In this document: positions 3,161-15,691 of the stretch, piece after piece
Position numbering within the stretch: the stretch's first letter is position 1
Layout of the letters: each line of letters opens with the position of its first letter
Origin: a virus
Strand: one strand, 5' to 3'
IMG/VR virus record: IMGVR_UViG_3300020020_000152
Span: 1-25,281 of that record
Length of the DNA stretch: 25,281 nt
Program-made: the position numbers and the translations under genes
Notes under the pieces: generated by a model
Databases searched by the model: none
Told to the model about the DNA's origin: nothing
The model's input: only the letters and a program-made list of their open reading frames with translations

Positions 3161-3535
3161 ATGAGGCGAGTCGTAATTGAGTCGCCCTTCGCAGGCGACA
3201 TTGCAGGCAACGTGCTCTACGCACGCCACGCTATGCGTGATAGCCTCGACCACGGCGAAGCTCCAATTGCTTCGCACCTTATCTACACTCAGCCCGGTAT
3301 CCTCGACGACACTATAGATAAAGAGCGCGATCAGGGTATCCAGGCAGGATACGAGTGGATGCACGCGAGCGATTTAGTCGCCTTCTACGTCGACCGCGGC
3401 TGGTCCAAGGGGATGCTCCGAGCACTCAAGATGGCGCGCATTCTCAAGAAGCCGGTCGAGGTGCGGTCGCTCTCCGGTAACACCGCGATCACAGACGAAT
3501 TCGCCAAAAAGTTTTTAGAGGACTGGCCAACGTGA
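3161..3535 (+). CDS. DUF7768-like / nucleoside 2-deoxyribosyltransferase-like protein
   Basis: A 124-residue protein with the N-terminal pattern VVIESPFAGDIAGN, followed by YARHAMRDSLDHGEAPIASH, YTQPGILDD and a later AFYVDRGWSKGMLRAL. This is the conserved layout of a phage/bacterial family (DUF7768) related in fold to nucleoside 2-deoxyribosyltransferases and the DUF4406/DUF1937 proteins. These have a Rossmann-like core that binds nucleotide-type ligands. Enzyme activity is unproven in the family as far as I know; a role in nucleotide metabolism is inference. The start is supported by GGAGAG 6 nt upstream. The 3' end overlaps the next gene by 4 nt. Confidence 0.75.
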   Translation: MRRVVIESPFAGDIAGNVLYARHAMRDSLDHGEAPIASHLIYTQPGILDDTIDKERDQGIQAGYEWMHASDLVAFYVDRGWSKGMLRALKMARILKKPVEVRSLSGNTAITDEFAKKFLEDWPT

Positions 3536-10865: not shown

Positions 10866-11342
10866 ATGAGTATCCTAGATATCTACGGCAAACGTAAGAA
10901 TGGCAGAAAGGAGCCCCTTATCATGCCAACAGACGACGCACCGCCGCGCTTTCTCTCAACCCCACAGCAGGCCGTTGCTCGCCCCTCTTCCCGCTCCGAA
11001 CGTGCCGCCCTCGCGGCAGCACAGTGGGAGGAGATCGAGAACGAACTGCGAGACTCGAAGGCCAAGTACGAGATGGAGGTCAACTCACTCAAGACCGAAA
11101 TTCAGGAACTCAAAGGGCGTCTCATAACCTTCGAGTCAGCAAACTCTATTCTTAACGCTGACTGCGAACTCCTGCGGGTTCAAGTAGCAGAAAACAGATC
11201 TAGGCTCGATACGCAGCGAGGCAAGCTCCAGGTCGCTGCGAAGATCATTCTCGACATGGCGGAAGAAGAGCGTAAATCTAGTCTTACCGAAGAGCAGAGT
11301 ATCGAAGCTCACAACGCTGTTGAAGAGGCCCTCACAAGATGA
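10866..11342 (+). CDS. Hypothetical coiled-coil protein
   Basis: A 158-residue protein with a basic, proline/serine-rich N-terminus (about residues 1-45) followed by a long charged helical region (about 50-130), including ENELRDSKAKYEMEVNSLK and LRVQVAENRSRL, that should form a coiled coil. GGAGG lies 6 nt upstream of ATG 10866. An alternative start at 10923 also has a ribosome site. It overlaps the ParB/methyltransferase start by 4 nt, so the two may act together. No enzyme motif is visible. Confidence 0.65.
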   Translation: MSILDIYGKRKNGRKEPLIMPTDDAPPRFLSTPQQAVARPSSRSERAALAAAQWEEIENELRDSKAKYEMEVNSLKTEIQELKGRLITFESANSILNADCELLRVQVAENRSRLDTQRGKLQVAAKIILDMAEEERKSSLTEEQSIEAHNAVEEALTR

Positions 11343-12649
11343 CTTCTGGGAAGTTCCACATGGTCCCGCTTGACGACATCACGGTCAGGCGGGACAAGCG
11401 CCAGCGGCGCGCTCTCGAAGATATCAACGTTCTTGCCGACTCTATCCGACGGCTGGGTCTCATTCACCCTATAGTCGTCACGCGAGAGCTTGAACTGGTC
11501 GCAGGCGAGCGCCGTTATATGGCGTGCACTGAACTCGGATGGAGTCACATTCCAATCCAGTATGTTGATGAGGCCGAGCCCGCAAAACTTCGCGCGATCG
11601 AACTCGAAGAGAATATCAAGCGCCAGGATATTTCATGGCAGGATCAGGTCCAGGCAATCTCTGAGTACCATCAGATCCGTGCCGTGGAGACTCCAGACTG
11701 GACCCAGAACGACACTGCCGCGGCCATTGGATTATCTCCGCAGCACGCTGGCCGAATGCTTCAAATAGCCGAGGAGATCGAACGCGGCAACAAACTCGTT
11801 ATCGACGCCCCTAAGCTCTCTACTGCCGCCGGTATAACCGAGAGGGCGCGCCTGCGCCGCGATCAGGAGAGTATTAGTAAACTTCACGAGACATTTCAGA
11901 CCCCGAAACAAGAGCGTCCCCCTGAAGATATCATTGTGGGCGATTTCACAGAATGGGTCCACACAGACATAGATCGACGGTTCAACTTTATCCACTGTGA
12001 CTTTCCGTATGGTATTGGGGCTGATGATTTCAATCAGGGCGGGGCTGCCGCCCACGGAGGCTACGCTGACACTAGTGAGACTTGGGCAAAGCTTGTACTA
12101 GCCCTTGAGGTCGCTACGAAGCGTATCGCGGCGCCCTCTTGTCACCTGATGTTCTGGTTTGCTATGAGAAAGGCCGATGATCGACTCTACGAATTGACTT
12201 GTCGCGCCCTCGAACTTATAGGCTGGGATATAAATCCTCAACCCCTAATATGGATGAAAAGCGATGGAGCAGGTATACTCCCCGACCCTGAACGAGGCCC
12301 AAGACAAATCTACGAGACATGTCTCTTTGGATCGAGAGGAGACCGTAAGATTGTTAGAGCGGTTGCAAACGCTTACCACGCGCCAACTGTCAGAGATCGG
12401 CACATGTCTGAGAAACCAGAGCCCATGCTTCGCCACTTTTTCGGTATGCTCGTTGACGAGAATACAGTTATGCTCGACCCTACCTGTGGTAGTGGAAGTG
12501 CATTGCGAGCGGCTGAGTCTCTTGGTGCGAAGTATGTCCTTGGCATTGAAAGAGACGAAGGATTTGCAAAGCTAGCACGCGAGGCTCTCGATCGCGCGCG
12601 CCGACTCAAAAAGGCAGAGAATGCAGTACAAGATCGCACTGGTGGGTGA
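11339..12649 (+). CDS. ParB-like domain fused to N6/N4-type DNA methyltransferase
   Basis: A 436-residue fusion. Residues 1-110 match a ParB/Spo0J N-terminal domain: DIxVR, LADSIRRLGLIHPIVV, LVAGERRYMACTELG, and ELEENIKRQDIS. A helix-turn-helix-like stretch follows (AAAIGLSPQHAGRMLQIA). The methyltransferase half has catalytic motif IV as DFPYG (Asp221), a variant of DPPY, and the SAM-binding motif I DPTCGSGSALRAAE at Asp380 near the C-terminus. Motif IV before motif I marks a beta-class amino-methyltransferase. Such ParB-methylase fusions occur in phages and plasmids and may methylate phage DNA against host restriction. The ParB fold can also hydrolyse nucleotides such as CTP; whether it does here is unknown. 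Confidence 0.85.
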   Translation: MTSGKFHMVPLDDITVRRDKRQRRALEDINVLADSIRRLGLIHPIVVTRELELVAGERRYMACTELGWSHIPIQYVDEAEPAKLRAIELEENIKRQDISWQDQVQAISEYHQIRAVETPDWTQNDTAAAIGLSPQHAGRMLQIAEEIERGNKLVIDAPKLSTAAGITERARLRRDQESISKLHETFQTPKQERPPEDIIVGDFTEWVHTDIDRRFNFIHCDFPYGIGADDFNQGGAAAHGGYADTSETWAKLVLALEVATKRIAAPSCHLMFWFAMRKADDRLYELTCRALELIGWDINPQPLIWMKSDGAGILPDPERGPRQIYETCLFGSRGDRKIVRAVANAYHAPTVRDRHMSEKPEPMLRHFFGMLVDENTVMLDPTCGSGSALRAAESLGAKYVLGIERDEGFAKLAREALDRARRLKKAENAVQDRTGG

Positions 12650-13646
12650 AGCCTGGGGCGAGCACGAAGAGCGCGAGCGTATGCCCTTCGTCGGCCCCGC
12701 CGGTTGGCAACTCAACTCCATGCTCAAGGAGGCCGGAATAGTCCGCGCCGACTGCTTCCTCACGAACTGTTTCAATCTGCGGCCAAGGCCGTCGAACAAG
12801 ATCGAAAATCTATGTGCAACCCGTAGAGAGGTCCGTCATGCGCTCCCGCCGCTATCATCTGGCAAGTACATCCGCGATGAATTTCTCCCTGAACTCGACA
12901 GACTTTACGCAGAACTTACTAAAGCTGATCCAAATGTCATTATCTGTCTCGGGGGAACTGCCGCCTGGGCAATACTACGTGACGGTAGAATATCGAAACT
13001 TCGTGGGGCAATCGCGAGTTCCCCCGTTCTGGCAGGAAAAAAATGCCTCCCCACCTTCCACCCCTCCTACATCCTCCAAGGAGGCTACGATCACCGACAC
13101 GTCACTATCCTCGATCTCCAGAAAGCCCGTCGAGAGTCCGAGTATCCCGAGATCCGCAGACCAAAACGAGTCATCTACACCGAGCCCCTTCTCTCAGAAC
13201 TTGAGTGGTTCGCCGAAAGGTTTATTTCACGGGCAAGACTCTTGGCAGTCGACATCGAGACTCGGGGAGAAAGAATAACCTGTATAGGCTTCGCGCCCGC
13301 GACGGACCTAGCCCTTGTGCTGCCGTTCGAAGATCTCCGCAAACCGGGCGGCAACTACTGGGGCTCGATAGAGTCCGAAATGGCCGCCTGGGCCTGGGTC
13401 AGAAGGGTGCTCGACTCTCCTGTAGAGAAGGTGTTCCAGAACGGTATATTCGATATGTCCCGACTGTGGAAGGGTTATGGTATTCCAGTGCGTAATGCAG
13501 CCCATGATACCATGCTACTGCATCACGCGCTCCAGCCCGAGTCCCCGAAGGCTCTTGCTTATCTGGGTTCGGTTTACACCAGTGAGAGCGCCTGGAAACT
13601 CGGCATCCGACTCAAGCACAAGGGCACCATAAAAAAGGAGGATTGA
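12621..13646 (+). CDS. Uracil-DNA glycosylase fused to Exo I/Exo II half of a PolA 3'-5' exonuclease
   Basis: A 341-residue protein. Residues 1-170 look like a family 4/5-type UDG: GEAWGEHEERERMPFVGPAG, the TNCFNLRP segment, and PTFHPSYIL with the conserved HPS. The Fe-S cysteines of thermophilic family 4 enzymes are not seen. From about residue 200 it reads as the start of a DEDDy exonuclease: Exo I is AVDIETRG (Asp211, Glu213) and Exo II is QNGIFDMSRLW (Asp278), then HDTMLLHHAL. It stops after GTIKKED, before Exo III (YxxxD), which is found instead near the N-terminus of the polymerase at 14264. In SPO1-like phages UDG, exonuclease and polymerase are one chain. The gene overlaps the methyltransferase end by 29 nt. 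The next gene starts 1 nt after this stop with an AGGAGG site. Confidence 0.85.
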   Translation: MQYKIALVGEAWGEHEERERMPFVGPAGWQLNSMLKEAGIVRADCFLTNCFNLRPRPSNKIENLCATRREVRHALPPLSSGKYIRDEFLPELDRLYAELTKADPNVIICLGGTAAWAILRDGRISKLRGAIASSPVLAGKKCLPTFHPSYILQGGYDHRHVTILDLQKARRESEYPEIRRPKRVIYTEPLLSELEWFAERFISRARLLAVDIETRGERITCIGFAPATDLALVLPFEDLRKPGGNYWGSIESEMAAWAWVRRVLDSPVEKVFQNGIFDMSRLWKGYGIPVRNAAHDTMLLHHALQPESPKALAYLGSVYTSESAWKLGIRLKHKGTIKKED

Positions 13647-13647
13647 G

Positions 13648-13854
13648 ATGCTTTGCGCCGCGATACTCTCCGTCGAACTCATCACGCCCCACTACTGCCC
13701 CTTTCTAGAGGAGGCAATCAATCGAACTATGGATCGCATGGTTCACTGTGAGGCTCAATGGACTCGCCAGTGTGAGGACGATTGGCGCACCCTCAATAAA
13801 CTGCGTCAGTGGAGCAGCGAGGCTCAGTGTGATCTCGTCTATAGGAGGTCGTGA
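13648..13854 (+). CDS. Small hypothetical protein between polymerase halves (first of three)
   Basis: A 68-residue protein with a strong AGGAGG ribosome site 6-7 nt upstream, the site overlapping the last codons of the UDG-exonuclease gene. It is mostly helical and has five cysteines at scattered positions (LCAAI, HYCPF, HCEAQW, QCEDDW, QCDLV). W/R-rich segments WTRQCEDDWRTLNKLRQW look amphipathic. Not recognised. Its separate ribosome site and ATGA overlap with the next gene argue against it being part of an intron. Confidence 0.6.
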   Translation: MLCAAILSVELITPHYCPFLEEAINRTMDRMVHCEAQWTRQCEDDWRTLNKLRQWSSEAQCDLVYRRS

Positions 13855-13988
13855 TGTTCTGGTGGGTAGCCTTTGTTAATCCTGCATGGTATGCCTACTG
13901 CTATACCCAGGCGTCTATGCGTCACGCGGCCTGGGGAGTGCCTTATGAACAGCACCGAGCCCTGATGCTGGCTTGGTATGGAATGTAG
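13854..13988 (+). CDS. Very small aromatic-rich hypothetical protein (second of three)
   Basis: A 44-residue open frame overlapping the previous stop (ATGA) and preceded by AGGAGG. Very rich in Trp, Tyr, Met and Ala (MFWWVAFVNPAWYAYCY...). It may be membrane associated. Function unknown. It lies between the two parts of the exonuclease domain. Confidence 0.5.
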   Translation: MFWWVAFVNPAWYAYCYTQASMRHAAWGVPYEQHRALMLAWYGM

Positions 13989-13997
13989 GAGGCCCTA

Positions 13998-14267
13998 ATG
14001 GCCGCACGCGAACTTGCCAAGCTTCTTGCCGTTGGACTCCTAAAGGAATCTCTGAAAGAGGGCGAGGAAGAACTCGAGGATATCACTATCCCGGTCTCGT
14101 CCAGCGCTATCCGCTCGATCGGTTGGCGCTCTGACGGCGTTATCACAGTGGAATTCCTCGCCCGCGGCACCTACAGCTACGCGGGCACCCGAGAACTCTT
14201 CGATGCCTTTGTCGCGGCGCCCTCGAAGGGCACATTCTTCAACGAGCACTTTCAGGTGCGGCGATGA
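13998..14267 (+). CDS. KTSC-domain protein (third of three between polymerase halves)
   Basis: An 89-residue protein. A helical N-terminal part (about residues 1-25, LAKLLAVGLLKESLKEGEEE) precedes a KTSC domain: VSSSAIRSIGWRSDG, then VEFLARGTYSYAGTRELFDAF, then SKGTFFNEHF. KTSC domains are small beta-alpha modules named from a conserved Lys-Thr-Ser-Cys set. They occur alone or at the end of lysyl-tRNA-synthetase-like proteins and in many phages; their role is unknown. AGGAGG 7 nt upstream. Its stop overlaps the polymerase start (ATGA), so it is coupled to polymerase translation. Confidence 0.8.
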   Translation: MAARELAKLLAVGLLKESLKEGEEELEDITIPVSSSAIRSIGWRSDGVITVEFLARGTYSYAGTRELFDAFVAAPSKGTFFNEHFQVRR

Positions 14268-15691
14268 AGGTCACCCGCACCGACACTCTCAAGCCGGGGC
14301 AACCGTCGTCAGAGACTGAACGATTATGGGTTTACAATGGTCTAGACTGCTGTGTGACGCTCGAAGTCCTCGAACACATCCTCCCCCAACTAGACAATCT
14401 CACCTCCAACACCTATTCTCTTTCGCGAGCCCTCCAGGCCCCGGTGCTGGAAATGAACCTCAGAGGAGTTCTTGTCGATGAGCAAGAACGAAAACGAGCT
14501 ATCGAAAACTATAAGACTGACACTGAACGACTCGAACGGAATCTCTATCGTATCGTTAGAGACGGAATTGGATACGACGGTTTCAGTGATAAGGGAAAGA
14601 CTAAAGCATGGAGATCTAACGCCCTTGTCGCTGTTCTATTATATGATATTCTCAAGCTTCCAGAAATTCGCAAGAGAAATGAAAGAGGAGAAATGGCCAG
14701 AACAGTCAACCGTGATGCACTTGAAAGACTTCAAATACACTTTATCGCCCAGCCAATCATCTCGCATATTCTATCTCTTAGGGACTTCGGAAAGAAAATT
14801 GGAGTCCTTGAGACGAAGATTGACTTCGACGGGAGACTCAGAACTTCGTATAACATTGCCGGAACTACAACGGGTAGATTTTCTTCTAGCATCAGCGATT
14901 TCGGAACTGGTGGAAATCTACAGAACGTTGAGGAAAGACTCAGACGAGTTGTCATCGCCGACAGAGGCATGAAGTTCGCTAACGTCGATCTTGAACAGGC
15001 TGACAGCCGCAATATAGGGGCTTTGTGCTGGAATGCGTTCAGAGACGGAAAATACCTGGATGCCTGTGAGTCAGGTGATCTCCACACTACGGTCGCTAAA
15101 ATGTCGAGACCCGAGCTGCCCTGGACTAACTCACTCAGTGAGGATCGGCGGATCGCCGAGCAGCCCTACTACCGGCACTACGGACTCCGGCATATGTGTA
15201 AAGTGCTTGGCCACGGCACGAATTACCTGGGGAGCCCCTATGAAATGTCAAAGCACACCAAAATCGACCAAGCCACTATCAAAGATTTTCAGGCTCTTTA
15301 CTTCAGCACTTTTCCGGCTATCCACAGACTCCATGAGTGGATCAGGACGCAGCTAATCGAGACTGGCAACCTCGTAACACCCTTCGGGCGCAAACGCTGG
15401 TTCTTTGGAAAGCGCGACGAACGAGATACTCTTAAACAGGCCGTGGCGCACATGGGCCAGTCAATGACCGCGGACGAGATGAACAACGCTATGATGGCGC
15501 TATGGCGCCTAAACCTTGTTCAAATACTGTTACAGGGCCACGACTCAATTCTAGTTCAATACCCAGAGGAGAGGGAGAATGAGATCGTACCGCTAGAAGT
15601 CCAAGTCGGATGGAATTGGGGCAAAGCTGCAAAGGATAATCCCGCCGGACTCTCGAAATGGCCAGATGAGCGCCGCCACCATACCAACTAG
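14264..15691 (+). CDS. Family A DNA polymerase carrying Exo III half of the exonuclease
   Basis: A 475-residue family A polymerase. It starts with residues that match the very end of a 3'-5' exonuclease: LWVYNGLDCCVTLEVL (Tyr24 and Asp28, the YxxxD of Exo III). The polymerase core has the TTTGRFSSS / NLQN motif, motif A VDLEQADSR (Asp242), motif B with RHMCKVLGHGTNYLG (Arg309, Lys313) and motif C GHDSILVQ (His426, Asp427). Two details differ from E. coli Pol I: His in place of Phe762 in motif B, and HDS in place of HDE in motif C. The missing Exo I/II motifs are on the UDG protein upstream, so the pair together would rebuild a SPO1-like UDG-exonuclease-polymerase. ATG overlaps the KTSC gene stop; the end overlaps the next gene by 26 nt. 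Confidence 0.92.
   Translation: MKVTRTDTLKPGQPSSETERLWVYNGLDCCVTLEVLEHILPQLDNLTSNTYSLSRALQAPVLEMNLRGVLVDEQERKRAIENYKTDTERLERNLYRIVRDGIGYDGFSDKGKTKAWRSNALVAVLLYDILKLPEIRKRNERGEMARTVNRDALERLQIHFIAQPIISHILSLRDFGKKIGVLETKIDFDGRLRTSYNIAGTTTGRFSSSISDFGTGGNLQNVEERLRRVVIADRGMKFANVDLEQADSRNIGALCWNAFRDGKYLDACESGDLHTTVAKMSRPELPWTNSLSEDRRIAEQPYYRHYGLRHMCKVLGHGTNYLGSPYEMSKHTKIDQATIKDFQALYFSTFPAIHRLHEWIRTQLIETGNLVTPFGRKRWFFGKRDERDTLKQAVAHMGQSMTADEMNNAMMALWRLNLVQILLQGHDSILVQYPEERENEIVPLEVQVGWNWGKAAKDNPAGLSKWPDERRHHTN

Follow-up and report, generated by a model that had tools for sequence, protein, structure and literature searches.

A phage family A DNA polymerase with its proofreading exonuclease motifs divided between two genes

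The IMG/VR virus record IMGVR_UViG_3300020020_000152 was analysed as a whole, over 25,281 bases (the window). It encodes a family A DNA polymerase in two pieces. Half A joins a uracil-DNA glycosylase (UDG) to the first part of a 3'-5' exonuclease, and half B carries the last exonuclease motif together with the polymerase. The motif set of the DEDDy exonuclease of family A polymerases is complete, but it is spread over two polypeptides, and the protein is therefore a split variant. The three domains of the SPO1-type UDG-exonuclease-PolA proteins are present in the same order, with homology to the fused phage polymerase family PHROG 17, and only the single chain is missing. Very probably, the two chains work as one enzyme, with a proofreading site that would form across their interface, as judged from sequence conservation, structure models and analogy with other divided phage enzymes.

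The features are as follows:
12621..13646, + strand: half A, family-4-type UDG and N-terminal part of a DEDDy 3'-5' exonuclease, 341 amino acids (aa)
13251..13259, + strand: Exo I codons of half A, Asp211-Ile-Glu213 ('DIET'), position derived from the residue numbers
13440..13454, + strand: Exo II codons of half A, Asn274-Gly-Ile-Phe-Asp278 ('NGIFD')
13596..13643, + strand: split-specific C-terminal tail of half A, residues 326-341, ending in KGTIKKED
13648..13854, + strand: gap gene 1, 68 aa, open reading frame (ORF) with a Shine-Dalgarno-like GGAGG
13854..13988, + strand: gap gene 2, 44 aa, with a similar protein in the gap of the relative L003
13998..14267, + strand: gap gene 3, KTSC-domain protein, 89 aa (PF13619, E 1.5e-10)
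14264..15691, + strand: half B, head, Exo III and family A DNA polymerase thumb, palm and fingers, 475 aa
Residues 1-20 of half B, + strand: split-specific head
14333..14347, + strand: Exo III codons of half B, Tyr24-Asn-Gly-Leu-Asp28 ('WVYNGLD')

Two halves of one polymerase

The UDG domain of half A spans about residues 1-170 and matches the Pfam family PF03167 (E 4.9e-20). The exonuclease part gives a partial match to the Pfam family DNA_pol_A_exo1 (E 1.2e-4) that narrowly misses the curated cut-off, and the chain terminates after Exo II. Half B begins 23 residues ahead of the Exo III tyrosine and matches the Pfam family DNA_pol_A (E 4.8e-25). Positions 481-788 of the PHROG 17 profile cover half A and positions 804-1200 cover half B. 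Because these stretches abut, the two halves adjoin within one family.

Between the halves lie three small genes, each preceded by a Shine-Dalgarno-like GGAGG. For gap gene 1, no similar protein was found in the gaps of relatives. The ATG of half B overlaps the stop codon of the KTSC gene as ATGA. Several stops interrupt the gap in the frame of half A and also in that of half B, and the split is therefore not the product of one sequencing error. A preliminary description of this DNA had placed Exo I and Exo II on the UDG protein and Exo III on the polymerase, with three independently translated genes between them, one of the KTSC type. Its frames, coordinates and residue positions were all right, and the ribosome-binding sites and the PF13619 match bear out its account of the gap.

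Conservation of the split

Viral metagenome contigs were searched with half A and half B, and the hits were matched up to pairs. In all of the 105 non-identical pairs obtained in this way the break lies at the identical position, and not one is fused (0/105). The phages that share the split form a large group from soil and fresh water. An isolated phage of Caulobacter, Kuura, has the split as well, with two gap genes. Chance is excluded by the recurrence of the same break, with intact catalytic residues, on the other contigs and in Kuura.

Conservation was counted over 107 sequence pairs, down to about 40% identity. Asp211, Glu213, Asn274 and Asp278 of half A are unchanged in 107/107, and so are Tyr24, Asn25, Leu27 and Asp28 of half B. 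The ratio of nonsynonymous to synonymous polymorphism (pN/pS) is 0.23 for the exonuclease part of half A, 0.14 for the Exo III region of half B and 0.19 for the polymerase. By this measure both exonuclease parts are under purifying selection, near that on the polymerase. The preliminary description had noted that the acidic residues and the tyrosine of the DEDDy site are kept on two chains, and had taken their retention as favouring assembly. Both statements hold across the wider sample, and a search for loss of key residues in close relatives, which would have spoken against the split reading, revealed none.

The broken ends are also conserved. The distance from the Exo II aspartate to the Exo III tyrosine is mostly 65-70 residues in fused relatives and mostly 83-94 in the split pairs. 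The excess is made up by the tail of half A and the head of half B, which have no counterpart in the fused relatives. In the head, Thr6 is retained in 103/107. The last 16 residues of half A have the lowest pN/pS of all regions (0.08), and synonymous change is not reduced there, which indicates a role at the protein level. The last codons of half A double as the Shine-Dalgarno sequence of the next gene. AGG accounts for 60% of the arginine codons among the last five codons of half A, compared with 8% elsewhere, and because of this enrichment the bases of the tail are taken to be a ribosome-binding site as well. A role of the conserved tail TIKRDE purely as a docking signal is thus only half true, on account of the embedded ribosome-binding site. 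In the relative L060, a KRDD tail is retained with codons that form no ribosome-binding site.

Structure models and the site of the break

A profile alignment to Klenow places the break after the Phe473 region, at about Gly480-Lys481 of E. coli Pol I, with the numbering counted so that Tyr497 and Asp501 fall on the Exo III of the query. The location is a surface loop that precedes the Exo III helix (the roles of the Klenow exonuclease residues are summarised in PMC9629493).

In the relative L068, a single in-frame TAA stands between the two halves. It was read as a residue, with all other letters unaltered, and the resulting single chain was modelled with AlphaFold2; the input alignment combined rows read through in frame with rows of naturally fused proteins. 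The joined chain was predicted with a mean predicted local distance difference test score (pLDDT) of 90.9 and a predicted template modelling score (pTM) of 0.86. The only stretch below 50 pLDDT comprises residues 328-338, the break itself. The best Foldseek match of the joined model is the exonuclease-domain-bearing Klenow structure 8oo6 (template modelling score, TM, 0.76 by target length), and the Pol I of phage G20c (7r0k, TM 0.72) is among the first five. Joined in this way, the two halves are predicted to give a Klenow-like enzyme. The exonuclease part of half A alone still matches Klenow and ExnV1.

We infer physical assembly, proofreading activity and a role of the extensions at the broken ends from these data. 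Chain A, with UDG, Exo I and Exo II, and chain B, with Exo III and the polymerase, would associate non-covalently. The DEDDy site would be present only in the complex, with Asp211, Glu213 and Asp278 contributed by A and Tyr24 and Asp28 by B, and the conserved short extensions at both new ends probably aid docking. Assembly is supported by precedent, because the split gp43 of Aeromonas phage 25 and the split NrdA of Aeromonas phage Aeh1 are active.

A regulatory role of the division can also be imagined. The level of proofreading could be set by the ratio of A to B or by DNA damage sensed by the UDG, and the polymerase might then run without proofreading. Selection for such a regulatory split would explain both the lack of re-fusion in the 105 pairs and the conservation of the broken ends, if the idea were true, but we consider it doubtful.

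Gap genes and origin of the split

At one extreme of gap length the halves overlap by 4 bases, and at the other they lie more than 1 kb apart. In 16 pairs (gap -4 to 0 bases) there is no room for a gene: 6 have a 4-base overlap, 7 have TAATG or TGATG, and 3 have TAA followed by ATG. The 143 gap ORFs fall into 78 similarity groups, with types that include KTSC, DUF7768/nucleoside deoxyribosyltransferase-like, DUF1937, HNH_3, LAGLIDADG_3, Endonuclease_7 and methyltransferase. The gap genes are interchangeable cargo. KTSC is restricted to the closest relatives (half A at least 73% identical), and even there it is missing from L041 (77% identical), in which the halves are adjacent.

Inserts of more than 100 bp are found at 82% of the A-B junctions, at 58% of the junctions between the upstream ParB-methyltransferase gene and half A, and at 2% of the junctions between half B and the DUF3987 gene, which nearly always overlap. 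Since the ParB-methyltransferase-A junction varies too, the A-B gap is not the only insertion site in the block. In the window, a DUF7768/nucleoside deoxyribosyltransferase-like gene is located at 3161-3535, and the same family occupies the gap in 14 relatives. The presence of a gap-filling family elsewhere in the window indicates that gap genes move about.

A tree of the polymerase part (quick, unrooted and with some long branches) unites the proteins of this split type in one clade with fused polymerases as neighbours (Shimodaira-Hasegawa approximate likelihood ratio test, SH-aLRT, 100). On this evidence the split is old and fixed, and appears to have arisen once, in the ancestor of the phage clade. 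The fused form is probably ancestral, because the deeper rows are fused (SPO1, with its intron, vir526 and Mel-JY34) and because this agrees with what is established for the family. The preliminary description had named a relative with a complete exonuclease in the polymerase as a possible objection. Fused relatives do exist, but as a sister clade that probably retains the ancestral state, and they do not refute the split.

L206 (5001-7870) is nested among fused rows, with 78% identity to its neighbour, and is independently broken in the same exonuclease loop. Its insert matches HNH endonuclease families (E about 1e-28), and the polymerase is otherwise of the fused type, so that the HNH insertion appears to be recent. 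A free-standing homing endonuclease gene of the HNH type most likely entered the exonuclease loop of a fused gene in the ancestor of the split clade. The endonuclease would later have been lost or replaced, leaving the gap open to changing small genes such as KTSC. The preliminary description had set assembly of the two chains against the remains of an invading element. Both are now favoured, as an old invasion followed by assembly, and only their mutual exclusion has to be given up.

The gene family is also broken at other places. In L184 (679-3380) and L190 (4995-7663), an HNH_3 gene at a domain linker parts the UDG from the exonuclease-polymerase. In MW202554 and L158, the break is in the exonuclease-polymerase linker. 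A candidate split in the palm occurs in the fused sister clade, in the Vibrio phage L159 (2956-6090) and in L181, L186 and L192. It lies just ahead of the region of motif A, at about position 555 of the profile and near the location of the SPO1 group I intron, and 45-817 bases separate the pieces; in L192 the break contains a methyltransferase-like gene. A second split of L026 (4457-6021), also at the palm, was discarded, since two overlapping frames make a sequencing or assembly frameshift probable.

Alternative explanations

Several points weigh against a two-chain enzyme that arose by endonuclease invasion. The end of half A is modelled better in the joined chain (pLDDT 87 and 82 for the matching residues up to the break tail) than in the window half A alone (88.4 overall, with the last 40 residues in blocks of 65, 63, 61 and 38), which fits completion of the fold by half B, but the two models were made from different alignments and different query sequences. 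The joined chain contains a one-residue covalent link, so that the model speaks for sequences that complete one fold rather than for separate chains that find each other. The embedded ribosome-binding site accounts for part of the conservation of the half A tail. Finally, a homing-type endonuclease is present in the gap of 15/105 pairs, a count that rests on membership in similarity groups with tested representatives, and about 86% of pairs have no recognised homing endonuclease there. The window is among the latter, with no homing endonuclease gene at the break. Since this is true of most gaps, an endonuclease is no more than the likely original cause of the split. The halves may assemble as proposed, yet owe their separation to a simple mutation, a stop and restart in a tolerant loop, with cargo and endonucleases arriving later. 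The gap-free adjacent arrangements in several branches would agree with such a course, as would the scarcity of endonuclease genes in the gaps. It is less easily reconciled with the independent HNH invasion of the same loop in L206 and with the HNH gene in the UDG-exonuclease linker break of L190. We consider a simple mutation possible but unlikely, and an endonuclease origin the likelier of the two on the sequence evidence.

The remaining explanations dispense with the interplay of two chains, or shift it to other proteins. If the exonuclease were dead, A would be a stand-alone UDG, B a proofreading-free polymerase and the motifs mere remnants. Some phage PolA proteins do lack the exonuclease residues (divPolA1, PMC11348598), but it is improbable that the acidic residues and the tyrosine would then have stayed unchanged in the 107 pairs, under purifying selection close to that on the polymerase. 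Splicing of an intron or a split intein could restore a full-length protein, and there are precedents in a group I intron of the SPO1 polymerase gene (gene 31) and in a split intein with an HNH gene in the PolB of phage MIJ3 (PMC6892783). The genes in the gap, however, have ribosome-binding sites and are translated separately, the half A tail (about 16 residues) and the half B head (about 20) are too short for ordinary intein halves, and the 16 gap-free pairs have nothing to excise. Intron excision, which the preliminary description had listed as a possible refutation, is thus ruled out for these relatives, and we regard splicing as highly improbable overall. The conserved intein end residues (Cys/Ser, His-Asn) were not found at the broken ends, where no dedicated intein profile was run, and a search of the window against Rfam gave no match, a weak test, since the SPO1 intron likewise escaped it. 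There is hardly any room, either, for the suggestion of the preliminary description that the gap proteins, KTSC foremost, hold the halves together as structural partners. They belong to the same gene string, and the start of half B overlaps the KTSC stop, but the restriction of KTSC to close relatives, its absence from L041 and the variety of the gap ORFs all speak against it. Because the halves follow each other without any intervening gene in 16 pairs, neither KTSC nor a spliced intron is necessary.

Comparison with known systems

SPO1 gp31 and the other PHROG 17 polymerases (Microcystis phage Mel-JY34, ctMlz233, vir526) have the same domains, order and motifs and are homologous throughout, but they are made as one chain, in contrast to the two chains of the window clade. 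The SPO1 group I intron is an insertion in the same gene family. It differs from the window break in being spliced at the RNA level and in its location in the polymerase domain (about profile 540-557) instead of the exonuclease loop.

A phage replicative polymerase on two chains is also encoded by the split gene 43 of Aeromonas phages 25 and 44RR. The gp43A and gp43B chains co-purify and are active, and an endonuclease gene or a spacer separates the genes (PMC2988022). However, gp43 is a non-homologous family B polymerase, whereas the family A enzyme of the window clade is cut between exonuclease active-site motifs. In phage Aeh1, the essential gene for NrdA is interrupted in a critical region by insertion of mobE, yet its parts make up a fully active enzyme (PMC2988022). 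There, a different enzyme is concerned and the endonuclease is still present, whereas in the window clade it has mostly been replaced by varied cargo. In the OM43 phages MEP401 and MEP402, PolA is encoded by two ORFs with a small ORF between them, across related genomes. According to the available parts of that report, the break is inside the polymerase domain and leaves the exonuclease whole on one chain, and these parts do not mention a UDG (PMC10580990). Split family A phage polymerases are thus already known. We found no report in the literature of one that is broken after Exo II and ahead of Exo III, and the retrieved passages of the Kuura paper name only a DNA polymerase, with no mention of a split.

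The division of the active-site residues of an exonuclease, in an arrangement fixed across a deep and widespread phage clade, offers a probable natural two-chain proofreading site that can be compared directly with a fused sister clade. L206 provides a snapshot of the same loop as an endonuclease gene enters it, and makes the steps from insertion to a fixed two-chain state testable. Together with the breaks at linkers and in the palm, the family is a system for asking where an essential enzyme can be cut. There is also a warning for annotation: chain A of Kuura is filed as 'hypothetical protein', and chain B resembles a proofreading-free polymerase.

Genomic neighbourhood and the UDG domain

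A scan of genomes for possible hosts yielded no more than three short contigs, all from metagenome bins, and no host was therefore assigned. The replication block around the split contains a Sak4-like recombinase, an SSB-like protein, a ParB-methyltransferase fusion and a DUF3987 primase-like gene. The fusion (11339-12649) combines a ParB N-terminal domain with an N4/N6 DNA methyltransferase, and shares 29 bases with the beginning of half A.

The UDG domain of half A has a family 4 / UdgX-like fold and motifs. Motif 1 of family 4 UDGs is usually GEAPG. In half A it reads GEAWG (12645-12659), and its fourth position is W or Y in 101/107 pairs. Since the motif is GEAWG or GEAYG in place of GEAPG, the uracil-excision activity or specificity of this domain may differ from that of the GEAPG enzymes.

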